64,000 nt of DNA from Tsukamurella sp. 8F (GTDB taxonomy: Bacteria; Actinomycetota; Actinomycetes; Mycobacteriales; Mycobacteriaceae): assembly GCF_029167375.1 (NCBI RefSeq), contig NZ_JARFTP010000016.1, forward strand, positions 1 to 64,000. The letters run 5' to 3'. Under the pieces are notes generated by a model. The model searched no databases and was not told the DNA's origin. It saw only the letters and a list, made by a program, of their open reading frames with translations. Both the position numbers and the translations under genes were made by a program. This document shows positions 43,234 through 58,154 of the stretch, one piece after another; within the stretch, counting starts at the first letter, position 1; each line of letters begins with the position of its first letter.

Positions 43234-43349
43234 GCGAGCCGCCATATGACGTCTCCCCCCACGTCGGTGGCCGCATTTGATTGAGCCTTGATATCGGTTC
43301 CCCCTCCTCCCCCCATTTCGGGAACCGATATCAAGGCCTTTCTCTTTCT
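43234..43349 (+). ncRNA. 6C-type small RNA
   Basis: The intergenic stretch has the two features that define the actinobacterial 6C RNA: two hairpins with runs of six C in their loops. Hairpin 1 (43238-43271) has a GACGT/ACGTC stem closing a CTCCCCCC loop. Hairpin 2 (43285-43337) has 18-bp perfect arms starting GCCTTGATATCGGTTCCC with a C-rich 17-nt loop containing CCCCCC. A pyrimidine-rich tail (CTTTCTCTTTCT) follows and serves as terminator. TATGGT (43221-43226) lies about 7 nt before the predicted 5' end. 6C RNA is a growth-phase regulator in mycobacteria and Streptomyces; targets here are unknown. Ends are approximate. Confidence 0.85.
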
Positions 43350-43487: not shown

Positions 43488-44030
43488 ATGCAGGACCAGG
43501 TCACCGAGCTCGCGGTCTCCGCGCAGCGCGGAGACAACCGGGCACTGACCGCTTTCATCGCCGCGACCCAGCACGAAGTACGCCGGTTCTGCGCGCATCT
43601 CTCCGACCCCACGCACGCCGAGGATCTCGCGCAGGAGACCTACCTGCGCGCGATCACGGCGCTCCCGTCGTTCCGCCGCGGCTCGTCGGCGCGCACCTGG
43701 CTGTTGGCGATCGCGCGGCGCACCGTCGCCGACCATCTGCGCGCGGCCGCCGCCCGTCCCCGGCTCGCCGCGGCGGACTGGCGCGCGGCGCTCGACGAGC
43801 GCCGCACTGTCACCGGGCCCGCGCCCCTGGTCGAGGCGCGGCTGCTGCTCGAATCCCTCGATCGCGAGCGCCGCGAGGCACTCGTCCTGACGCAGGCGTT
43901 CGGGCTGACCTACGCCGAGGCGGCCGACGTGTGCGGCTGCCCGGTCGGCACCATCCGCTCGCGCGTGGCCCGTGCACGGGAACAACTCGTCGCGCAGCAG
44001 CATTCGGCGTCCCAGGAAGCGACGGCATGA
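43488..44030 (+). CDS. sigC: ECF sigma factor, SigC-like
   Basis: The 180-residue protein has sigma region 2 ([25 protein letters not shown], with a helix recognising the -10 box) and region 4 ([46 protein letters not shown]), and no C-terminal extension. Its link to the copper ATPase immediately downstream (4-bp overlap) and its sequence suggest SigC of mycobacteria, reported to control copper acquisition genes. TACCCT lies 7 nt before ATG; the open frame from 43281 runs through the 6C RNA terminator and is rejected. No separate anti-sigma gene is adjacent. Confidence 0.82.
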
Positions 44031-46273
44031 CAACGCTCGAGCACCAGACCGCGACCGAGGCCGATACCCACCGCATCGCCCTCGACGTCGGTGGCATGAC
44101 ATGCGCGGCATGCGCGAACCGCGTGGAGCGCAAGCTGAACAAAGTCGACGGCGTCCGCGCATCGGTGAACTACGCGACGCGCACGGCGACGGTCGAGGCA
44201 CCGTCCGGCATGGGCGTGGGCGAACTCTGCGAGACCGTCGCAGCGGCCGGCTACTCGGCCACCGAGAAGTCCGGCAACCCCCGCCGCGCCGTGGTCGCCG
44301 AGGAGCGCGAACGCCGCGACCTGCTGCGCCGCCTCATCGTGTCGCTGGTGCTGTTCGTACCCGCGGCGGACCTGTCGGTGGTCCTGGCCACCGTCCCGTC
44401 GACGCGATTCCCCGGCTGGCAGTGGGTGCTACTCGCGCTGAGCCTGCCCGTGGTGACGTGGGGCGCGTGGCCGCTGCACCGCAAGGCCGCAGCGGGTGCG
44501 CGGCACGGGGCGGCGTCGATGGACACGCTGGTGTCGACGGGGATCATCGCCGCCACGCTGTGGTCCGTGGTCACCGTGCTCACACCCGGACGCGTACGGC
44601 CGGACCCGCACGGCGTGTGGCAGGCGATCACGCACTCCGACCCCATCTATCTCGAGGTCGCGATGGGGGTCACCGTCTTCGTGCTCGCGGGCCGCTACTT
44701 CGAGGCCGCCGCGCGCAGCAAGGCGGTGAGCGCGATCCGCGAGCTGGCACAGCGCGGAGCCCGCGACGCGACGGTCCTCCTGAAGGACGGCTCGGAGCTG
44801 CGCATACCCGCAGCCGAGCTCAAAGCAGGGCAGCGCATCGTCGTCCTCCCGGGCGAGACCGTGCCCACCGACGGGACCGTCGAGGCCGGTTCCGCTTTCG
44901 TCGACGCGAGCGCGATGACGGGCGAGACCCGTCCGGTTCCCGTCGAACCCGGAGCCGAAGTGTTGGGCGGAACGGTGTGCCAGGACGGGCGCCTCACGGT
45001 GCGCGCGACCGCGGTCGGCGAGGCCACCGCACTCGCCGCGATGCGTCGCATGGTCGAAGACGCGCAGGCCACGAAGGCGCGGATGCAACGGCTCGCGGAC
45101 CGCGTATCGGCCGTTTTCGTGCCGTGCGTCTTCGCGATCGCCGTGCTCACGCTCGGCGGGTGGTTGCTCGCAGGCGGCAGCGCCGACGAGGCCGTGACCG
45201 CAGCGATCGCCGTGCTGGTCATCGCGTGCCCATGCGCCCTCGGCCTGGCCACGCCGGTCGCATTCATGGTGGCGTCGGGCCGCGGCGCACAGCTGGGCAT
45301 CTACCTGCGCGGGCACCAGGTCCTGGAGGCGACCGAGGCCGTCGACACCGTCGTGTTCGACAAGACCGGAACCGTCACGACCGGCGACCTGCGCGTCACG
45401 TCGGTCACGGGCGCCGCCCCCGGCGCGGGTATCGCCACCGACGAGGCCGTGCGCCGCGCCGCCGCCGTCGAGGCCGCGTCCGAGCATGCGGTGGCGCGGG
45501 CGATCGTCGCATACGCCGGCGACACCGGATTCGGCATTCCGGAGGACTTCCGCGCCGTGCCCGGCATGGGCGCGAGTGGGACCGTCGACGGCCACGCCGT
45601 GCGGGTGGGCAGTGCGCGGTTCGTGCCCCCGAGGGCTCTCGCTCCCGCGGTCGACGAGGCGGAGTCCGTCGGCGCCACCGTCGCAGTGGTGGAGGTCGAC
45701 GGCGAGGTGGCGGCCGTCGTCGCCGTGGCGGACGACGTCAAACCCGATGCTGCAGAAGCTATCCGGCGCCTCCGCTCCGCCAGCGTGCGGACCGTGCTGC
45801 TGACCGGCGACAACCGTGCGGCCGCGGAGAAGGTCGCCGCCGCCGTCGGCATCGAAGACGTGCGCGCCGAGGTGCTGCCGGACGGCAAGGTCGCGGCGAT
45901 CGAGACACTGCGTGCCGAGGGCCACACCGTCGCAATGGTGGGCGACGGCGTGAACGACGGCCCTGCTCTCGCAACCGCCGACCTGGGCCTGGCGGTGGGC
46001 ACCGGCACCGACGTCGCACGCGCCGCCGCCGACGTCGTCCTTATGCGAGACGAGCTCGTCGCAGTCCCCGACGCCCTTGGCCTGTCTCGCGCCACGGTAG
46101 GCACGATCAAGGCGAACCTCCTGTGGGCCTTCGGCTACAACGTCGCGGCCATCCCCGTTGCAGCCCTCGGCCTCCTCAACCCGCTCGTCGCCGCCGGTGC
46201 GATGGCGTTCAGCTCGTTCTTCGTGGTGTGGAACAGCCTGCGGCTCCGCCGTTTCGGAGCCGGCCGCCCCTGA
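44027..46273 (+). CDS. ctpB: Copper P-type ATPase (CtpB/CtpV-like)
   Basis: The 748-residue P1B-type ATPase has an N-terminal HMA domain ([13 protein letters not shown]26/C29), eight membrane helices, the copper-transport motif CPC (401-403), the phosphorylation site DKTGT (D445) and a [15 protein letters not shown] hinge. It moves Cu+ across the membrane. The start overlaps the sigC stop (ATGA), making a sigC-ctpB operon. Whether copper moves in or out is not evident; mycobacterial SigC-CtpB is discussed as copper acquisition. Confidence 0.92.
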
Positions 46274-46440: not shown

Positions 46441-47361
46441 GTGACGATCGACGTGGGCACGGACGTGGACTCCCGCATCGCGGGCGCGTTCTGGCACGCG
46501 GCCGTACCGATCGGAATCGCCGACCTGGACGGCAACGTGCTCGAGGCCAACGATGCCGCCGTCGAGCTGATCGGCATACCCGCCGACCGAATGATCGGTA
46601 CGTCCGTCCTAGTCGGCCAGGCACCCGACGAGCGCCGCGCCACCGAGCAGGTGCTCGAGTCGCTGCGCGCCCCCGGCGCCGGCCCCGCGGCGCTGACCAC
46701 GCGCTTCCGCCGCGCCGACGGCACCGTCGGCGTCGTGCACTGGTCCGTGACCCGCGCACCGGGCGACGACCCGTACGTCGTCGCCGTCGGCCACGACGTC
46801 ACCATGCACCGACGCACCGAGCAGGCACTGCGTTACCAGGCCCAACACGACGAGCTCACCGGCCTGCCGAACCGCCGCCGGCTGGCCGACGCCATCGACT
46901 CGGCGCTCGGCCACGCCGGCCCGATCGGGCTGTGCTACTTGGACCTCGACGACTTCAAGGCCGTCAACGACCGCTTCGGGCACCGCGGCGGAGACGATGT
47001 GCTGGTGGCCGTGGGGCGCAGGCTGCGGGCCGTCGCCGACGCGCGCCCCGGACTGATCGTGGCGCGAATGGGCGGCGACGAGTTCGTCGCCCTGCTGCCG
47101 CAGGCCACCGACGACTCGCTCACCGCGACCACGACCGCGATGGCGAACGCGCTTGCCGACCCCGTCGCGGTCCGTGGCGTACCGGTGCGAGTGACGGGCA
47201 CCGTCGGCGCGGTCCTCGCCACCGGCACCAATGCGGGCGAGCTGCTCGCCGAGGCGGACACCCGCATGTACGAGGCGAAGCGGACCCACCGCGGCATCCC
47301 CAAACCGTGCGCCGCAGCCGCACGTGCGTGGCGCCTGCGCGCCGCGGGACCCCTGCGCTGA
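46441..47361 (+). CDS. PAS-GGDEF diguanylate cyclase
   Basis: The 306-residue protein has a PAS sensor (AVPIGIADLDGNVLEANDAAVE, residues ~15-120) and a GGDEF domain with the intact GGDEF motif (211-215). The I-site (RxxD, nine residues before the motif) reads RPGL, so product feedback inhibition is probably lost. It should make cyclic di-GMP in the cytoplasm. The start is GTG 46441, with AGAGGAAACGGGG upstream. No phosphodiesterase is nearby. Confidence 0.87.
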   Translation: MTIDVGTDVDSRIAGAFWHAAVPIGIADLDGNVLEANDAAVELIGIPADRMIGTSVLVGQAPDERRATEQVLESLRAPGAGPAALTTRFRRADGTVGVVHWSVTRAPGDDPYVVAVGHDVTMHRRTEQALRYQAQHDELTGLPNRRRLADAIDSALGHAGPIGLCYLDLDDFKAVNDRFGHRGGDDVLVAVGRRLRAVADARPGLIVARMGGDEFVALLPQATDDSLTATTTAMANALADPVAVRGVPVRVTGTVGAVLATGTNAGELLAEADTRMYEAKRTHRGIPKPCAAAARAWRLRAAGPLR

Positions 47362-47398: not shown

Positions 47399-49387
47399 TC
47401 AGACCAGGTCGTCGGATTCCTCCTCGCGGGCCGACTGCCACGCCCAGTGCAGCACCAGCCCGACGGTGACGAGCGCGATGGCCGCCTCGTCGCAGGCCCA
47501 TGCGACCACACCGCCCACGAACTGGTCGTGCGCGAGATCCGTCATCCACGGCACGTCGAGATACTGGTACAGCCGCGGCCCGATGAGACCGTTCATGGTC
47601 ATCACGATGATCGCGAAGAACATGGAGATGGGCATCATCGCCAGCAACATGCCCACGCGCCCGATGAAGGGCAGCCGATGGGGGACCGGGTCGATCTGGA
47701 ACACACGCCAGTAGAACAGGAATCCGGTCACGAGCACCGCGAGGTAGATCCCCGTATGCCCCCAGTGATAGCGGCCGATGCGGTCGTACAGCGGCGTCAG
47801 ATAGAGCCCGTAGAGGGTCAGCGCGAACAACAGGATCTGCACTGCGGGCCGCATCAACACGGCGAACGATCGCGAGTCGAGCACGCGCTCCAGCCACTGC
47901 GGGGCAAGCGTGGTCCGCAGCAGCGTGACGGGCGCTCCCAGCAGCAGGAAGACGGGTACCAGCGACGTCATCAGCATGTGTGTCACCATGTGCACACTGA
48001 AAGCCACTGTCGCATAGGTGTTCACACCCGAACTACTGAGCACCACCAGTGCCGCGCAGCCGAACAGGAAGCACGCGGTCCGGTACCACGGCCATTGGAT
48101 CGTATCGACTCCCCGTCGCCCCGCTCGCCGCACGAGCCACACGTAACCCCCGGCCAGCAGCACCGCGAGCGGCACCAGGTTCAGGTCCCACCGCCACAGG
48201 GTGAGGAACCTGCCGACGCTCGGCGGATCGAGGACGTCGTAGCCCAGCATCACCTCGCCGATCGTGAAGCGCCGCACGAGGAACGACGGCGGCGTGAGCT
48301 CCGACGCTGCGATCGCGACACCGGCGGCGACCGTGAGGACGACCGTGGCGGGAACCGTCCGACGTAGCCACTGCAGTAGCCCTGCCAGCGCGACCAGCAC
48401 GCCCGCGGCCGATACCAACCGTCCGTACAGAGTCTCCGTGAGGTCCGAACCGGGCGCCATGACCACCGCTATCACCGCCCCGTACCCGAGCGCGATCACG
48501 GCGAACACCACTCCCGTCCAGCGCCTCTCGTCGCGCCACGGCACCACCGCCTGCGCCCACAGACCGCCGAGCCACACGGCGGTGGTCAGGGCGAGCGCCA
48601 TGAGCGCAGCGGTCGTGTAGTCGTGCCGCGGGCCTTGCGCCTCGTTGGCGGTCACGACGGCGGCGAGCACGCCCAGCCCTGCGGGCAGGAGCAGCCACAA
48701 GTGGGCCATCCAGCTCAACGCGTTACCGAGCCCCACGAGGACCACCACCGCGGCAACGAACGAGACGAACCAGCCCTTGGCCGTCTCGGACGCCCCGATG
48801 GTCGCCCACAGGCCGCCGTACCGCCACACGTCGACCAGATTCTGGCCCGACGTGTCCGCCGCCGACAACGGCACCATCAGGATCGAGACGACGGCCCACA
48901 CGCGCGTCGCACGGTGCGCGAGCCGGTGCGCGAGATAGCCCCGCAGCCCCACATCGCCGGTATCCTGTACGGCGGTTCGGAAGACACCGAAGGCTATGGC
49001 GCCCAGCGTGACCGCCGCCGCGAGGGTCGCGATCAGGCGCCCGGCTCCGGCGCCGTACGACGTGAGTGCACCCGGATACGTATCACCGTTTATGGTGTAG
49101 CGCGATGCGCCCTGCGTTGCGAGCACGGCGACCACCACCGCCAGCGCCGCGAATGCGCCCAGCCCGAGCCCGAGGGTGCCTCCCCGTGGCGGGGCCACCG
49201 GCGTGACAGGTGCGGGCCGATCGACCTCCCCGGCGAGAGTGGCCGGCACCCTGCGCAGGCGTGCCGCGTCGTCGGCCCACTCCCGGCAGTCGGAGCATCC
49301 CGCGAGATGTGCGTCGAGGTCGCCGGGGGGCGGCACCTCCCCGTCGAGGCGGCTGGAGATGCCCTCCCGGGCGTCGGAGCACTGCAT
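47399..49387 (-). CDS. Anti-sigma zinc-finger fused to CopD-CtaG copper membrane protein
   Basis: The 662-residue protein starts with a ZAS-type anti-sigma zinc finger: C3, then H27-x3-C31-x2-C34 (HLAGCSDC). This is the zinc motif of RsrA-like anti-sigma factors. It is followed by a transmembrane helix and a large CopD-like region (~120-350) and a CtaG-like domain (~400-640, SVHMVTHMLMTSLVPVFLLLG). CtaG delivers copper to cytochrome c oxidase. The CopD-CtaG fusion itself is common in Mycobacteriales; the zinc-finger head is what is unusual. The only sigma factor nearby, SigC, is about 3.4 kb away, close to the copper ATPase, so it is the natural candidate partner. Confidence 0.85.
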   Translation of the reverse strand: MQCSDAREGISSRLDGEVPPPGDLDAHLAGCSDCREWADDAARLRRVPATLAGEVDRPAPVTPVAPPRGGTLGLGLGAFAALAVVVAVLATQGASRYTINGDTYPGALTSYGAGAGRLIATLAAAVTLGAIAFGVFRTAVQDTGDVGLRGYLAHRLAHRATRVWAVVSILMVPLSAADTSGQNLVDVWRYGGLWATIGASETAKGWFVSFVAAVVVLVGLGNALSWMAHLWLLLPAGLGVLAAVVTANEAQGPRHDYTTAALMALALTTAVWLGGLWAQAVVPWRDERRWTGVVFAVIALGYGAVIAVVMAPGSDLTETLYGRLVSAAGVLVALAGLLQWLRRTVPATVVLTVAAGVAIAASELTPPSFLVRRFTIGEVMLGYDVLDPPSVGRFLTLWRWDLNLVPLAVLLAGGYVWLVRRAGRRGVDTIQWPWYRTACFLFGCAALVVLSSSGVNTYATVAFSVHMVTHMLMTSLVPVFLLLGAPVTLLRTTLAPQWLERVLDSRSFAVLMRPAVQILLFALTLYGLYLTPLYDRIGRYHWGHTGIYLAVLVTGFLFYWRVFQIDPVPHRLPFIGRVGMLLAMMPISMFFAIIVMTMNGLIGPRLYQYLDVPWMTDLAHDQFVGGVVAWACDEAAIALVTVGLVLHWAWQSAREEESDDLV

Positions 49388-49606
49388 ACGGTGTTAGTCG
49401 TGCCGGCGGCCGGTTCGGTTCCCGGCTGTGACCGACGACACTGCGGCGGTTCGCGCTGAAACCCCTCCGTCAGGCGGCGTTGCGGACATGACATCCACTA
49501 CGCCGCGCGAGCGCGGGGTTTCGCCCGGCTGAACCTGCGGCCGGACGATCAACCGGCCCGGACGCAGGATCAACCGCCGCGCCCGCCGGGCGGCGACGCT
49601 GGGTTC

Positions 49607-51630: not shown

Positions 51631-52587
51631 TCAGTCACCGCGGTGGACGGCCGTCGACCGGTACCAGTCGACGGTCCGGCCGATCCCCTCTCGCAGATCG
51701 ATCCGAGGCTTCCACCCCATCGCATGCAGCCGCGACACGTCCAGGAGTTTGCGGGGCGTCCCGTCCGGCCGACTCGTGTCCCAGGTGGTCGCACCCTCGA
51801 AACCGGTGGCCGCGGCCACCATCTCGGCGATCTCCGCGATCGAATGGTCCTCGCCGGTCCCGACGTTCACCTGCTCCGCGCCGTCGTAGTTGTCGAGCAG
51901 ATGCAGGCACGCCGAGGCCATGTCGTCGACGTGTAGGAACTCGCGTCTAGGCGCACCGCTGCCCCAGTTCTCCACCGCTTCGGCGCCAGCGGCGCGCGCC
52001 TCGTCGTACCGGCGGATCATCGCCGGAAGCACATGCGAGGTCGTCTCGGAGAAGTTGTCCCCCGGGCCGTAGAGGTTGGTCGGCATGGCCGAGATCCATG
52101 GCAGCCCGTACTGTTTGCGCACGGCCTGAACCTGCAGGATCCCGGCGATCTTGGCGATCGCGTAGGCGTCGTTGGTCGGTTCGAGGTGCCCCGTGAGCAG
52201 GTACTCCTCCTTGATCGGCTGAGCGGCCAGCTTCGGATAGATGCACGACGACCCCAGGAACAGCAGTCTCTCGACGCCGTGCGTCAGGGCCGCATCCATG
52301 ACGTTCACCTGGATACGCAGGTTCTCGCTGAGGAAGTCGACGGGCGCTTCGCTGTTGGCCAGGATGCCCCCGACCTTCGCTGCCGCGAGCACCACGACGT
52401 CGAAGTCGTTCTCCGCGAAGAACGCCATGACTGCGTCGCGGTCTCGCAGGTCGAGGTCCGACGAAGTCCGTCCGACGAGATCGGCGAAACCCTCCTGCTG
52501 CAGGTGGCGGTATACGGCGGAACCCACCAAACCCCGGTGCCCGGCGACGTATACCCGCGACGCGCGGTCGACCGGCGTGACACTCAT
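51631..52587 (-). CDS. fcl: GDP-L-fucose synthase
   Basis: The 318-residue SDR enzyme has the Rossmann motif [13 protein letters not shown], the Tyr-x3-Lys pair in YAIAKIAG, and the LGSSCIYPK and NLYGPGDNF motifs of WcaG/Fcl. It turns GDP-4-keto-6-deoxymannose into GDP-L-fucose with NADPH. The ATG at 52587 overlaps the gmd stop (ATGA), so synthesis is coupled. This is the nucleotide-sugar supply for the polysaccharide locus. Confidence 0.93.
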
Positions 52588-53621
52588 CGAGACAGCCCCT
52601 CCCAGCCGGCCAGCACAGGCCGGTCGATCCATGGCCGGCCTTGATGCTCCAGTGCCTCGACATCGGCGTCCACCATGATCCTGGCCAGCTGATCCGGCAT
52701 GACCGAGGCCTTCCATCCGAGCTGCCGATGCGCCTTGCCCGGGTCGCCGATCAGCGAATCGACCTCAGTGGGTCGGAGGTAGCGCTCGTCGATGCGGACG
52801 TGGTCCTCCCAGTTCAGTCCGGCGTGCTCGAAAGCCGTCGTCAGGAAGTCCCGCACCGAGTACGCGGCGCCCGTCGCAAGGCAGTAGTCGTCGGGCTCGT
52901 CCGCTTGCAGCATCCGCCACATGCCCTCCACATACTCCGGCGCGTACCCCCAGTCGCGGACGGCGTCCAAGTTGCCCATGTACACGTACTGGTCGAGTCC
53001 GGCCTTGATCCGCGCCACAGCCCGAGTGATCTTCCTGGTCACGAACGTCTCGCCGCGGCGAGGCGACTCGTGGTTGAACAGGATGCCGTTGACCGCGAAC
53101 AGGCCGTAGGCCTCGCGATAGTTGCGTGTCATCCAGTACGCGTACACCTTCGCGGCACCGTAAGGCGACCGGGGATAGAAGGCGGTCTCCTCGTTCTGCG
53201 GGGGAGGCGTGGCGCCGAACATCTCCGAGCTCGACGCCTGGTAGTAACGGCAGTCGAGTCCGGCCAGCCGGACCGCCTCTAGCAGGCGCGTCGCTCCGGT
53301 GCCCGTGGTGTCTCCCGTGTGCTCGGGCTCGTCGAAGCTCACGCGCACATGCGACTGGGCGCCGAGGTTGTAGACCTCGTCCGGCCGGATCGTGCCGAGC
53401 AGGGTCACGAGGCGGGCACCGTCGCTGAGGTCGCCGTAGTGGAGGAACAACCGAGCGTTGTCATCGTGTGGGTCGATGTAGATGTGGTCGATCCGGGACG
53501 TGTTGAACGTCGATGCTCGACGTATCAGGCCATGGACTTCGTACCCCTTGGCGAGCAATAGCTCAGCGAGGTAAGACCCGTCCTGACCGGTGATCCCGGT
53601 GATGAGTGCGCGCTTCGACAT
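52584..53621 (-). CDS. gmd: GDP-mannose 4,6-dehydratase
   Basis: The 345-residue enzyme has [12 protein letters not shown], the ASSSEMFG motif and the catalytic SPYGAAK YxxxK pair, and typical full Gmd length. It makes GDP-4-keto-6-deoxymannose, the substrate of Fcl. ATG 53621 is chosen because GGAG lies 8 nt upstream and the upstream part of the frame is unlike Gmd. It is transcribed away from the glycosyltransferase genes that start at 53837. Confidence 0.94.
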
Positions 53622-53836
53622 AGATGGTTCTCCGATACAGATGCCAGGCGGCGAAAGCCGCACCATACTGCGCACGAGGCTGTGGTCGGCAACTGCCGCA
53701 GCCCTTTTGGGCGAATCCACCACACCGTTTGACAGTTACGACGGTCCCGATACTATATGCACAGTCAAGCAACGTGAGGACCGGACATAAAACCCGATAC
53801 TCCGAGCGCCACCGTCGTCGGGAAGTCAGGAGTCGC

Positions 53837-54619
53837 GTGTCAGAGTTCGCGGGCGCACATCCGCCTTATAACGAAACAGACGTTGCGGGAATACCTTTCA
53901 TCTGCACAACCTTCGACAACGCTGTGAACCGAGTGATCGAGCTCGGCCGGACCCACGGCGCCGCGGGAACGCCCGTACGGTTGTCCAACGCCTACTGCGT
54001 AGCTCTCGCGAACCAGGACCCCGAGTACCGAGCAGTCCTGGCCGGGCCGGGCTGGAACTTTCCTGACGGTGCCCCGGTCGCCTACTTCATGCGGCGGCAG
54101 AACCGGAAGTCCCCGTCGGAGCGCGTGCGCGGCCCGTCGCTGTTCGCGGCGGTGCTCGACCGGGGCCGGTCGGCAGGCCTGCGTCACTTCATGCTCGGCG
54201 CCACGCAGGACACTCTCGACCGCCTGGTGGAGTCGATCGGAAATCGCTATCCGGGCGCCGAGGTCGCGGGGACCTACTCGCCCCCGTTCGGCCCGCTCGA
54301 CGAGTCGTTCTACACGGAGTCGATCGCGCGCATCGAGGAATCGGGCGCCGATGTCGTGTGGGTCGGCCTGGGCACCCCGAAACAGGACTTCGCAGCCGCC
54401 GAGCTGGCACGCCGCGTGCCGCTGCCGTTCCTCGGCGTCGGCGCCGCCTTCGACTTCGTGGCCGGCGTGGTTCCCGAGGCTCCCCTGTGGGTCCAGCGAT
54501 CCGGCTTCGAGTGGCTGTACAGGCTGGTGAGCGAGCCACGGCGGCTGTGGCGCCGCTACCTCATCGGCAACACCCAGTTCCTCTGGTCGGTCGCCACGGC
54601 ACCGCGCCACACCTCCTGA
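53837..54619 (+). CDS. WecG/TagA/CpsF-family glycosyltransferase
   Basis: The 260-residue protein has the family pattern PFICTTFDNAVNRV, the RLSNAYCVALANQDPEYRAVLA segment, DGAPVAYFMRR, and VGLGTPKQDFAA. Family members transfer N-acetylmannosamine or similar sugars onto lipid-linked acceptors. GTG 53837 has AGGAG 4 nt upstream; the longer frame to 53624 covers the promoter region and is discarded. TACTAT near 53749 may be the -10 box. Confidence 0.88.
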   Translation: MSEFAGAHPPYNETDVAGIPFICTTFDNAVNRVIELGRTHGAAGTPVRLSNAYCVALANQDPEYRAVLAGPGWNFPDGAPVAYFMRRQNRKSPSERVRGPSLFAAVLDRGRSAGLRHFMLGATQDTLDRLVESIGNRYPGAEVAGTYSPPFGPLDESFYTESIARIEESGADVVWVGLGTPKQDFAAAELARRVPLPFLGVGAAFDFVAGVVPEAPLWVQRSGFEWLYRLVSEPRRLWRRYLIGNTQFLWSVATAPRHTS

Positions 54620-54647
54620 TCACCGCCGTCCTGCAAGAATTGGAATC

Positions 54648-55553
54648 ATGGCCGAGAACAGCCTCGACATCAGCGTCGTGCTCCCCTTCTATAACGCCGC
54701 CGCCACGCTGTCTCAGGCCATCGAGAGCGTGTTGGAACAGCGCGGCGTCCCGTTCGAGTTGGTGCTCATCGACGACGGCAGCTCCGACGGCTCGCCGGAG
54801 ATCGCCGCACGGTACGCATCCGACCCACGCGTCCGCCTGATCTCGCATCCGAACAAGGGGCTTTCCGCATCGCTCAATATCGGCGTCGAACAGGCGCGGG
54901 CTGATCTGATCGCCCGCATGGATGCGGACGACGTCAGCCTCCCCGGCCGCCTCGAGCATCAGGTCCAATACCTACGCGAGAACCCCGACGTCGTTCTGCT
55001 CGGTGGCCAGATGGTGCGGCTCGTCGGCGACGAGCGAACGACGAAGTCGTCCTTCCCTGTCGACCACGAGAGAATCGTCTCGGCGCTCCTGCAGGGACAG
55101 CATGCGATCTCACACCCCACCGTCGCGTTCCGGAAGGATGCCGTACTGGAGGTCGGCGGCTACTGGAACGAGGGCCTCGCCGAGGACTGGGACCTGTACC
55201 TCAAGCTCGCCGAGCACGGCCGGCTGGCGAACCTCCGCGACACGGTGCTCGACTACCGCTATCACGGCAGTGGCATCAACGCCGACAGTATGCGTACGGT
55301 ACGGACGAACATCGCACTCGCCGTTGAGAATCACCGGCGTCGTCAGGCAGGCCTCGAGGAGTACACCGGCGCGCAGTTCCGTGCTGCGCTCACGCCCGGC
55401 CGCCGTTTTCGGATCGCGGCCGAATCGCGCAGCCTGAGCCTGTACCGCGCGTCGCTGGCCGGCCACGGTGTGCAGAGCAGGGCGCTGCTGGCATGCGCGG
55501 CAGCGGCATGGCCCCCCTTCGCGTGGCGCCGCATCACCCAACGCGAAGGCTGA
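54648..55553 (+). CDS. GT2 glycosyltransferase
   Basis: The 301-residue GT-A enzyme has the N-terminal ISVVLPFYNAAATLSQAIESVLEQ, the DDGSSDGS and MDADDVSLPGRLE metal-binding motifs and a GLAEDWDLYLKLAEHG acceptor motif. It adds one sugar to the growing repeat unit at the cytoplasmic membrane. It begins 28 nt after the WecG-like gene and is followed closely by the flippase. Confidence 0.9.
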   Translation: MAENSLDISVVLPFYNAAATLSQAIESVLEQRGVPFELVLIDDGSSDGSPEIAARYASDPRVRLISHPNKGLSASLNIGVEQARADLIARMDADDVSLPGRLEHQVQYLRENPDVVLLGGQMVRLVGDERTTKSSFPVDHERIVSALLQGQHAISHPTVAFRKDAVLEVGGYWNEGLAEDWDLYLKLAEHGRLANLRDTVLDYRYHGSGINADSMRTVRTNIALAVENHRRRQAGLEEYTGAQFRAALTPGRRFRIAAESRSLSLYRASLAGHGVQSRALLACAAAAWPPFAWRRITQREG

Positions 55554-55558
55554 TCACA

Positions 55559-56878
55559 TTGGCGTCCTCCAAGATTCGCGCACAGTTCGCCACCATGCTG
55601 GGCTCACGCATCACAGCGAACCTTCTGCAAGCGGTCAACGTGATCGTCCTGGCTCGGTCGGTCAATCCGAGCGAGATCGGCGTGACGTCCGCGATCATCG
55701 GCGTCTGCATGGTCCTGTTCACGGTCACCGACCTCGGTGTCTCCACGTACACCATGAAGGCCCATGCGCAGCGAGAGGAGCGCGCGGTCGCATCGGCGCT
55801 CCGCGTCACGACCTTCACCACGTGGTTCTTCGGGCTGCTCGCGCTTGCCGGCTCGGTGGGATTGTCGGGCGCAGGAGTCATCCCGCTGACGCTGACGCCC
55901 TTGGTGCTGTCGGTGGCTATCGATCGATGCGTCGAGTTCCGCCTGGGCGTCCCCATAGCGGAGGATTCGCTGAGTATCCCGGCGAGCTCGATCCTCCTGC
56001 GGCGGTTCATCCAGTTCGCGATCTTCCTGATCCTGATCCCGATGTCCGTGACCCCGCTGCTCGCGTACTCGCTGGCCCAGCTCCTCGGTGCCCTCGCGGG
56101 TTACGCCCAGAGTCGGTTCTTCCTGCGACGCTCGGTCCACTACGCGGGGCATGACTTCAAGTCACCGTTCGCGATCCTCCGCGAGTCGTTCCACTACTTC
56201 GTCAGCAACGTGACGACACAGATCCAGCTGCTCGACACCTTCCTCGTATCAGCCTGCTCCGGCGCCAAGCAGGCGGGTCTGTACGCGGCCGCGATGCGCG
56301 TCACCAGCCCACTCGTGCTTATCCCGGGTACGCTCGCCTCGGCCGTCCTTCCGCCCGCCGCGCGAGCTACCCCTCGCCAGGCGCGATCCATCGCGCTGAA
56401 GCTGATGGCGCTCGTCCCTCCCGTGCTCCTGATATCGATTCCCGGTGGTTTCCTGCTCGCGCGGCCGGTCTGCGTCCTCCTCTACGGCGAGGCGTACCGG
56501 GATGCCGCGCTCACGCTGGCGATCATGTTGCAGGGCATACCGTTCGCCATTCTCGCGGCCGCGGTGGCGGCGGTGCTGCAAGCTCAGGGTGAGGATAGAT
56601 TCGTCGCGAAGACCGGGCTCGTCTTCGCGTTGATCTTCATAGCCGCGGTATCCGGTGGCGCGCTCTGGTACGGCTCCGTCGGCGCCGCGATCGGCAGCGC
56701 GTTGACCGCGGTGTGTAAGTGCATCCCACTCGGGATACGGGCGAATCGCATGGGGCACGGCCCCCACGGACCGAACCGACCGGAAGTCGAAGCGGTCGGA
56801 TCGCCCCACCGTACGATCGATTCGCCACCTGCCACGATCCAGGACGACGGCGACGGCGGAACGCGACACGAGTCATGA
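55559..56878 (+). CDS. Wzx-type polysaccharide flippase
   Basis: The 439-residue polytopic protein (about twelve helices, e.g. ITANLLQAVNVIVLARSVNPSEIGVTSAII) belongs to the MATE/MOP polysaccharide exporters. It should flip lipid-linked repeat units to the outer face. The start is taken as TTG 55559, 5 nt after the preceding stop, with GAAGG (55545-55549) 9 nt upstream; the long frame back to 55493 overlaps the glycosyltransferase gene. The hydrophilic tail has ~45 residues. Confidence 0.84.
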   Translation: MASSKIRAQFATMLGSRITANLLQAVNVIVLARSVNPSEIGVTSAIIGVCMVLFTVTDLGVSTYTMKAHAQREERAVASALRVTTFTTWFFGLLALAGSVGLSGAGVIPLTLTPLVLSVAIDRCVEFRLGVPIAEDSLSIPASSILLRRFIQFAIFLILIPMSVTPLLAYSLAQLLGALAGYAQSRFFLRRSVHYAGHDFKSPFAILRESFHYFVSNVTTQIQLLDTFLVSACSGAKQAGLYAAAMRVTSPLVLIPGTLASAVLPPAARATPRQARSIALKLMALVPPVLLISIPGGFLLARPVCVLLYGEAYRDAALTLAIMLQGIPFAILAAAVAAVLQAQGEDRFVAKTGLVFALIFIAAVSGGALWYGSVGAAIGSALTAVCKCIPLGIRANRMGHGPHGPNRPEVEAVGSPHRTIDSPPATIQDDGDGGTRHES

Positions 56879-56909
56879 TCGCCCACCACTCGAGAAACAG
56901 GAGCATCAG

Positions 56910-58154
56910 ATGGAACTGACCAGCGTGTGGAAGGTGATCCGCGCTCGGTGGCGCATCGTCGTCGCGGGGATCCTCCTCGGGATCATCGGCGCCATCGGAG
57001 CAACCCTGTTGATGACTCCCAAGCACGAGTCCACCGCCCGGGTCCTCATCGGAACCTGTGGCGAGGGGTCGATCGACCAGTCGTACCAGTGCGGCATGTA
57101 CGCACAGCAGCGGACCAGTTCCTATGTGTCGCTGGTAGACAGCGACATGCTCGCAGGCAGGGTGATCGGCGACCTGCACCTGAACATGTCCTCGCAGGAC
57201 CTTCTCTCACGCCTGAGCGTCAAGGCGGAGCCGGATTCGGTCGTCCTCGACATCACCGCGACGGACACCGACGGCGGCCGCGCCCAATCGATCGCCAACT
57301 CTGCAGCCAAGCAGACCGGCCCCTTGATCCGGGAGGTCGAGAGGTCGGACAAGGGCGGCAACCCGTTCACCGACGTGACGGTCATCGACACCGCATCGGC
57401 ACCCACCACGACCGGCTCCGGCATGCTGCCGAATGTGGCCTTCGGGCTCGTTGCCGGTCTCGTGGTCGGGCTCATCGCAGCCTTCATCCGCGAACGCTCC
57501 GACGCCAGCGTCAACTCGCGCGACGACCTCGCGGAGCGGGTATCGGTTCCGGTTCTGACCGGCGTCTCCGACACCGACTCGCGAGACTCGGCACGTCGAC
57601 TGCGCGCGGAGGTCCTCGCCGGGCTGTCCGGTGACGACGCAAAAGTACTCGCCGTGGCCGGGGTCGAGGACCGCGCGAGCGCGACGACGGCGCGCGCGCT
57701 CGCTCGCGCCCTCGGCGAGACGTCGCCGAAGGTGCTCTTCGTGAACGCCGCTACGCCGGGCACCGCCGACGAACCGCAGGCGAAGGACGCTCCTGCCGGC
57801 CTGACGGACCTCCTGGCGGGTACGGCGACGGCGGACGACCTCGAGACGACCGCACATGAAGGCGCCGCGTATTCCGAGCTACCCCACGGATCCTCGACGA
57901 CGGACCCGGGTGTCCTCTTCGCACCGACCGCAGTGCGAAAGGTCGTCGAGGCCATGCGGGGGCGGTTCGACCACGTCGTCGTCGACGTCGGTAACGCGCT
58001 CGACGGCGCCGCGGCCGATGTCTTCTCCACGCATGCCGACGGGACGATCGTCGTGGCACGCGAACGCCTCACGCGCAAGGGCGATCTGGTGTCCGCGGTC
58101 AAGCGCCTCGAGTCGCTGGGGAGCCGGGTGCTGGGTATCGCCCTGGCTCGCTAG
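56910..58154 (+). CDS. Wzz-like chain-length protein with degenerate BY-kinase domain
   Basis: The 414-residue protein has two transmembrane helices (residues ~15-36 and ~175-193) enclosing an extracellular Wzz domain, then a cytoplasmic C-terminal domain like a bacterial tyrosine kinase. The region that should hold the Walker A P-loop (GxxxxGKST) reads AVAGVEDRASATTARALA, without the Gly-Lys-Ser/Thr core. The Walker-B-like VVVDVG strand survives at 356-361. It is therefore probably a non-catalytic kinase-like regulator of chain length. Two cysteines (C50, C61) lie in the external part. Confidence 0.85.
   Translation: MELTSVWKVIRARWRIVVAGILLGIIGAIGATLLMTPKHESTARVLIGTCGEGSIDQSYQCGMYAQQRTSSYVSLVDSDMLAGRVIGDLHLNMSSQDLLSRLSVKAEPDSVVLDITATDTDGGRAQSIANSAAKQTGPLIREVERSDKGGNPFTDVTVIDTASAPTTTGSGMLPNVAFGLVAGLVVGLIAAFIRERSDASVNSRDDLAERVSVPVLTGVSDTDSRDSARRLRAEVLAGLSGDDAKVLAVAGVEDRASATTARALARALGETSPKVLFVNAATPGTADEPQAKDAPAGLTDLLAGTATADDLETTAHEGAAYSELPHGSSTTDPGVLFAPTAVRKVVEAMRGRFDHVVVDVGNALDGAAADVFSTHADGTIVVARERLTRKGDLVSAVKRLESLGSRVLGIALAR

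Follow-up and report, generated by a model that had tools for sequence, protein, structure and literature searches.

Zinc-associated anti-sigma (ZAS) factors such as RsiW, ChrR and RshA begin with a finger of about 50 residues, in which an HxxxCxxC motif follows an upstream Cys, and are tied genetically to an extracytoplasmic function (ECF) sigma factor and to a promoter of a type linked to that sigma. To our knowledge, fingers of this kind are carried on short soluble proteins or on proteins with few transmembrane segments. In a 64,000-nucleotide stretch of Tsukamurella sp. 8F DNA (the window; contig NZ_JARFTP010000016.1, positions 1 to 64,000), the gene at 47399-49387, here termed zf-ctiP, has the N-terminal Cys...HxxxCxxC finger, the ECF association and the sigma-linked type of promoter, but its finger sits on a copper-insertion protein with 16 transmembrane segments and a Caa3_CtaG domain. 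The proposal developed here is that zf-ctiP is likely to be an anti-sigma factor of SigC, with CtiP as its copper sensor.

Several described systems approach this arrangement from different sides. For M. tuberculosis, the available part of PMC7924339 has SigC functioning in copper starvation and ctpB as its direct target, treats the sensing of copper shortage via SigC as an open question and gives no anti-SigC factor as identified, in agreement with the statement in a first-pass annotation of the window that mycobacterial SigC has no well-known anti-sigma factor. A later review, in its accessible sections, lists M. tuberculosis SigC among the ECF factors without an associated anti-sigma factor, and tabulates an ECF36 sigma fused to a DUF2275 anti-sigma (KLO31890.1, Mycolicibacter heraklionensis) in the group that includes M. 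tuberculosis SigC (PMC8999054). ZAS anti-sigmas and such ECF36 fusions are, on the strength of those sections, already known; there the anti-sigma is joined to the sigma, whereas the window has a free sigma factor and a finger joined to CtiP. Metal sensing is likewise joined to ECF control in CorE (PMC8999054) and OrbS (PMC9023288), where, in the excerpts available, the sensor lies within the sigma factor; in zf-ctiP it would lie within a metal-delivery protein. Corynebacterium glutamicum CtiP, whose loss disturbs the bc1-aa3 oxidase supercomplex and which ties copper to assembly of that oxidase, is like the zf-ctiP product in its 16 transmembrane segments and Caa3_CtaG end, and has a CopD-like middle; unlike zf-ctiP, it has no anti-sigma finger described in the accessible text, which gives its N-terminal function as unknown (PMC9145763). 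The literature search, as far as the texts were accessible, returned no description of a finger-CtiP fusion or of an anti-SigC, and by that measure the joining of the finger to a copper-insertion protein is new.

A ZAS-type finger on a CtiP-type protein

The gene, its parts and its promoter are as follows.

47399-49387, minus strand: fusion gene zf-ctiP, a single open reading frame of 662 amino acids plus stop, starting MQCSDAREGISSRLDGEVPPPGDLDAHLAGCSDCREW
49232-49387, minus strand: ZAS/zf-HC2 finger, residues 1-52 (C3, H27, C31, C34), from PF13490, a finger profile and an AlphaFold2 model
49175-49231, minus strand: flexible linker, residues 53-71, with a predicted local distance difference test score (pLDDT) below 50 at residues 50-58
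47399-49174, minus strand: CtiP-type membrane body, residues 72-662 plus stop, from 16 predicted transmembrane segments, AlphaFold2 and identity to congeners
47441-48148, minus strand: Caa3_CtaG domain, residues 414-649 (Pfam PF09678, 228.3 bits)
49397-49423, minus strand: SigC-type promoter GGGAAC-N17-CGAC, beginning 36 nt upstream of the zf-ctiP ATG

Because translation starts MQCSDAREGISSRLDGEVPPPGDLDAHLAGCSDCREW, the four finger residues stand where the first-pass annotation had placed them. The Pfam zf-HC2 match (PF13490, residues 3-35) reaches 23.7 bits, just above the cut-off of 22.2, and a profile made from SigC- and CtiP-linked finger heads gives the head 46.9 bits versus 12.0 for the RshA-like finger of the same genome. 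Only one further zf-HC2 in the genome exceeds the Pfam cut-off; it lies directly behind another ECF sigma gene, a pair that we take to be sigH-rshA. On these scores the zf-ctiP head belongs with the anti-SigC-type fingers of the zf-DUF2275 proteins that accompany SigC. It is the head alone that fits that family, as by Pfam the DUF2275 part of four transmembrane segments with its His/Glu/His residues is absent from the protein.

Calling the remainder a CopD-CtaG copper membrane protein was right as to Caa3_CtaG; CopD went unmatched in a Pfam scan of the whole protein at E 0.1, which returned zf-HC2 and Caa3_CtaG. The body is CtiP-type with a putative CopD-like region, and the term copper insertion or assembly factor suits it better than plain transporter. 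The hydropathy profile shows 16 membrane segments, the first at residue 72, and together with an Arg/His-rich loop noted by eye between the second and third segments this suggests that the N-terminus is inside and the finger cytoplasmic. The AlphaFold2 model (41 rows; pLDDT 86.5, predicted template modelling score (pTM) 0.85) has a head of three short helices (4-14, 24-30 and 35-45), a floppy linker at 50-58 and then the membrane body, and a fold search with it gave zero PDB matches at E ≤ 0.001.

The frame looks coding from M1: G+C by codon position is 0.78/0.58/0.91 over codons 1-55 and 0.69/0.49/0.87 over the remaining codons, and the third codon upstream of the ATG is a TAA stop in the same frame. 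That a wrong start or an assembly error has produced a finger not in fact translated with CtiP would accord with the fusion being found in a single genome, but is scarcely credible against the coding composition throughout the frame, the stop just upstream, a promoter element whose end lies only 9 nt from the ATG, and aligned congener genes that start about 45 codons later (those starts being assigned by the analyst).

All 13 full-length CtiP orthologues of congeners, with 61-65% identity to the zf-ctiP body, are without a finger in frame or nearby, and in the 45 CtiP frames checked, these 13 included, there is none within the first 200 residues. A second fusion was sought by the position at which matches start on zf-ctiP, those starting at residue 30 or beyond being read in part. 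None appeared among the matches listed from 201 genomes of the family and from 249 genomes of the order (80 with E ≤ 1e-60); G065, G133 and G153, with matches from residue 12 or 28 onward, proved on reading to have no finger. Finger and CtiP share a frame in none of the best 80 of 301 relatives' loci; the fusion was seen in this genome alone. The first-pass annotation would have counted absence of the motif from CopD-CtaG relatives that keep sigC-ctpB against its idea, and taken literally that is what is observed: the motif is absent from their CtiP, the finger being carried on a separate protein instead.

Co-occurrence of the finger family with SigC

Counting zf-HC2 matches per genome was rejected as a marker of the finger, being too coarse (matches in 16/16 genomes of the genus), and a SigC/CtiP-linked profile was therefore used. 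The zf-DUF2275 profile, built from 14 membrane-type finger proteins that all come from SigC-positive genomes, was applied to a family set of 201 genomes, 53 of them with SigC detected (weakest E 5.6e-35). It matches in 61, namely 52/53 with SigC versus 9/148 without, and in 38/39 with SigC when the 14 source genomes are excluded; the nine matches lacking SigC comprise frame-split genes in three genomes of one genus and six weak matches (1.9e-7 to 9.7e-7). In the genus of Mycolicibacterium rhodesiae (297 genomes) the finger is present in 191/192 genomes with SigC versus 3/105 without (finger 194, SigC 192, both 191, finger only 3, SigC only 1, neither 102), and the sole genome with SigC only is 63% complete. 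Within Tsukamurella (16 genomes) an anti-SigC-type finger is present in 5/5 genomes with SigC and 0/11 without, ten of the latter being judged by the finger profile and the eleventh (G201) by zf-HC2. This near one-to-one tie between finger family and SigC in the genomes examined appears new in the literature searched. A zf-DUF2275 gene that is frame-split, with no SigC detected, is found at L108:8041-9014 (G040; also in G106 and G143), in G040 near ctiP- and ctpB-like genes; these split genes are probably relics of a regulator.

The association extends to gene arrangement. In 54 sigC regions, from which regular-expression matches unlike the family were removed by eye, the finger gene adjoins sigC in divergent orientation in 16, forms one open frame with SigC in six (L039, L077, L079, L084, L085 and L086), stands elsewhere in the region in nine (with ctiP there in eight), is fused to CtiP in one, the window, and is not seen in 22, of which 15 belong to a single genus with small genomes, taken to be Corynebacterium. 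A GTDB scan with a finger-DUF2275 alignment supplied 301 relatives. With matches below fixed score thresholds removed, the best 80 of these loci, some on short contigs and some in genomes already counted above, include sigC in 55, CtiP in 61 and ctpB in 62, with at least one of them accompanying the finger gene in 72; one common order has finger and ctiP followed by divergent ctpB and sigC. Species with sigC within the finger locus include M. gordonae, M. szulgai and M. asiaticum, and M. lepromatosis has finger and ctpB together with no sigC nearby; in two 3.3-Mb genomes among seven mycobacterial genomes of 3.3-4.6 Mb examined, finger and sigC are both present and far apart.

Single open frames of zf-DUF2275 and SigC, natural anti-sigma-sigma chains, occur also in many mycobacteria of the M. 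rhodesiae genus. By Pfam the L085 chain consists of zf-HC2, DUF2275 and sigma regions 2 and 4, the architecture of KLO31890.1 as tabulated in the accessible part of PMC8999054. Genomes taken to be Corynebacterium (L096-L105 and L112) encode a finger protein with four transmembrane segments, beside neither sigC nor ctiP and without His/Glu/His, which is a candidate anti-sigma for that genus's sigma-C.

A promoter shared by finger genes

A scan with a pattern for M. tuberculosis promoters found no match before sigC or zf-ctiP; the motif used was obtained de novo. Upstream of ctpB in SigC-positive loci the top enriched spaced pair is GGAAC..CGAC (67/82). GGGAAC and CGAC before ctpB are spaced by 17 in 58/81 loci (58/80 with one duplicate removed), and each other spacing from 10 to 24 occurs at most four times. 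SigC presumably reads GGGAAC-N17-CGAC, because the motif precedes ctpB, which M. tuberculosis SigC targets directly according to the available part of PMC7924339.

Counted from -250 to +30 of estimated starts, the motif stands upstream of ctpB in 58/77 cases, of finger genes (within 250 nt) in 40/122, of sigC in 0/108 and of a separate ctiP in 1/56. Among 119 unique finger starts it is present at 40, at exactly -36 in 34 (the window gene included) and at -39 in three; a background of 266 sites in 5.07 Mb leads to an expectation of about 0.006 at one fixed position over 119 starts. At zf-ctiP the CGAC ends 9 nt upstream of the ATG, and the -36 position implies a leaderless, or nearly leaderless, transcript if the predicted promoter is used. 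Such a putative leaderless promoter, common to finger genes, is likewise new by the literature searched. The window therefore appears to retain an anti-SigC gene's promoter, start geometry and finger, ctiP having taken the place of DUF2275.

The zf-ctiP element is the sole exact N17 copy within the window. The genome has 41 such sites, five of them intergenic by a simple gene caller: before zf-ctiP, before a PepSY_TM gene (55 nt), before a lipoprotein-like gene (155 nt), and two with no gene behind.

That the finger binds no sigma and is a structural or metal-handling addition to CtiP, for instance passing copper or zinc on to the CopD-like part, is quite improbable. Cys/His sites can bind copper and the fusion is seen only once, but such a role is hard to square with a family-wide link to SigC, a SigC-type promoter conserved at -36, and natural chains in which a finger of this family is joined to SigC. 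The fusion, the family to which the finger belongs, the association of finger and SigC, and the promoter element are established at the level of sequence.

The neighbouring SigC, its congeners and a second SigC

Three genes near zf-ctiP lie on the opposite strand, with sigC and ctpB facing it.

43488-44030, plus strand: sigC-like ECF sigma factor gene, product SigC1 (NCBIfam SigC, 195.2 bits; best PDB match M. tuberculosis SigC, 2o7g)
44027-46273, plus strand: ctpB-type P1B copper ATPase gene, named from sequence and its position beside sigC, which it overlaps by 4 nt
46441-47361, plus strand: PAS-GGDEF gene (Pfam), between ctpB and zf-ctiP

The placing of the finger gene near sigC-ctpB in the first-pass annotation is confirmed, the two plus-strand genes overlapping as ATGA. 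SigC1 is called SigC-like because its best library match is the NCBIfam equivalog NF007231 (195.2 bits, E 8.3e-58, under the curated cut-off of 219) and its best PDB match is 2o7g. Four congeners (G070, G113, G125 and G188) keep the order hydrolase-ctpB-ctiP of the window and lack both sigC1 and the finger that heads ctiP; in its stead, ctiP is preceded by a small gene whose start looks signal-like. In G053 neither finger nor sigC is beside ctiP, and ctpB falls outside the stretch read.

Tsukamurella sp. 8F has a second SigC (SigC2, contig 12), and whether the head instead serves this SigC, or both, bears on the choice of partner. In a SigC tree that carries long-branch warnings SigC2 groups with three congener SigCs (support 97/97) and is the genus-typical one, and SigC1 takes a different, weakly supported position (91/70). 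The exact motif 55 nt before the PepSY_TM gene beside SigC2 allows that both sigmas may read the same promoter. SigC2, however, has its own divergent finger protein, bearing a Cys-rich tail, and it is SigC1 that is jointly absent with the finger at the locus in four congeners, so that service to SigC2, or to both, is unlikely. Its motif makes that PepSY_TM gene (L223:1919-3268; G000 contig 12) itself a likely target of SigC, with a role in the handling of copper or iron.

Sensing, release and the standing of the proposal

Many finger proteins consist of the finger and a DUF2275-like four-helix membrane part, and others are short and soluble. Conserved His/Glu/His residues are present in the membrane part of 100/114 unique finger proteins, and a Met/His-rich loop is, by eye, frequent in the four-helix type. 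Small soluble finger proteins divergent from sigC (L033 of G000 contig 12, L034, L035 and L036) end in a metallothionein-like Cys-rich tail, e.g. CGCGDVCRCEPECTCGDLCAC, and are possible cytosolic copper-sensing anti-SigC factors. The finger appears to be a portable sigma grip set on bodies of metal-related look, in the window the CtiP body.

Under the proposed mechanism, the 5′ part of an anti-SigC gene, comprising a SigC-type leaderless promoter and the finger head, would have become joined to ctiP, yielding a protein that restrains the neighbouring SigC as its anti-sigma factor and has the whole copper-insertion protein for a sensor. With copper sufficient or CtiP working, the cytoplasmic finger would clamp SigC at the membrane; with copper scarce, an empty or idle CtiP would shift state and its finger would free SigC. 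The freed SigC would take RNA polymerase to GGGAAC-N17-CGAC promoters, that of zf-ctiP first, and more copper-delivery protein and anti-sigma would be made jointly, output and negative feedback in one polypeptide. We infer the binding of SigC, a closed, inhibited state, and the copper trigger with its direction. The parts of this scheme differ in standing: the head is quite likely to act as an anti-SigC, and for release being set by the state of CtiP the case is evenly poised.

A tentative alternative, possible but doubtful, is that the finger does bind SigC and CtiP is a mere membrane anchor, with release via oxidation of the finger, loss of zinc or proteolysis. ZAS fingers are known to switch with redox state or zinc, zinc-binding and oxidised forms of SigW-RsiW are among the PDB matches, the modelled linker between head and body is floppy, and versions in the genus with a Cys-rich tail have no membrane part. 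Set against this, the same finger elsewhere heads a four-transmembrane domain whose conserved His/Glu/His suggests that sensing on the membrane side matters, and CtiP and ctpB recur as its neighbours (61 and 62 of the best 80 loci).

The natural L085 chain offers a structural view of a finger with its sigma. Its 451-residue zf-DUF2275-SigC protein was modelled with AlphaFold2 (46 rows; pLDDT 79.4, pTM 0.44), the SigC part having 88-92% identity to solved M. tuberculosis SigC domains. By VIA-align, sigma-2 and sigma-4 are placed as in ECF factors bound by an anti-sigma, namely CnrH-CnrY (Z 15.6, root-mean-square deviation 2.6 Å over 151 residues), RpoE-NepR (14.3, 3.4 over 148) and SigW-RsiW (14.2, 3.9 over 156), and full-length matches to RNA-polymerase-bound ECF factors deviate by 20.7-27.0 Å. 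The modelled arrangement would suit an inhibited complex, and goes no further than that.

The idea of the first-pass annotation, an anti-SigC domain borne by a copper protein, is strongly supported by comparative evidence: co-occurrence, neighbourhood, finger-SigC fusions, the -36 promoter and, at one locus in congeners, the lack of sigC1 and finger together. A number of observations weigh on the other side of the proposal as a whole. The fusion is confined to one genome, with 13/13 congener orthologues and 45/45 CtiP frames lacking it; no SigC-type promoter lies ahead of sigC1-ctpB in the window, and the exact motif is missing at 79/119 finger starts. Fisher p-values for co-occurrence of finger and SigC are extreme, and ignore shared ancestry. 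The genomes taken to be Corynebacterium keep their finger-membrane protein distant from sigC and without His/Glu/His, and as the genome has in SigC2 a second SigC, with its own finger protein, either SigC could be the partner of the head. With a pTM of 0.44, the L085 model makes no finger-SigC contact visible and fits sigmaE-RseA (11.4 Å) and SigK-RskA (9.4 Å) badly; it fits SigG1 (7qh5), whose title names no anti-sigma, at 3.1 Å over 138 residues, equally well, and the closed form therefore need not depend on the finger.

The finger family, which in the genomes examined tracks SigC nearly gene for gene, is by its sequence associations a strong candidate for the anti-SigC described as missing in M. 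tuberculosis, M. tuberculosis itself not being identified among those genomes, and it offers testable residues in the finger and in the membrane His/Glu/His site. If these proposals are true, the finger sensor of four transmembrane segments with His/Glu/His would explain copper-starvation sensing in mycobacteria; by linking the finger family to a copper-insertion protein, the fusion points to oxidase copper delivery as the signal, and copper protein, sigma anchor and output would be one molecule. The double claim, that one polypeptide is copper-insertion protein, copper sensor, SigC anchor and predicted first SigC target, and that finger proteins with four transmembrane segments and His/Glu/His are the mycobacterial anti-SigC, could as readily fail as hold.

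Other features of the window

The product of the gene at 46441-47361, a diguanylate cyclase (PAS-GGDEF), has no counterpart in the five congener loci read. Between the hydrolase gene and sigC, at 43286-43336, an inverted repeat with perfectly matching 17-bp arms (CCTTGATATCGGTTCCC/GGGAACCGATATCAAGG) and a T-rich stretch behind it probably make up an intrinsic terminator. After the copper locus, 51631-58154 holds a polysaccharide-type cluster, named from reading of its open frames, with gmd- and fcl-like sugar genes, glycosyltransferases, a flippase and a Wzz-like protein.
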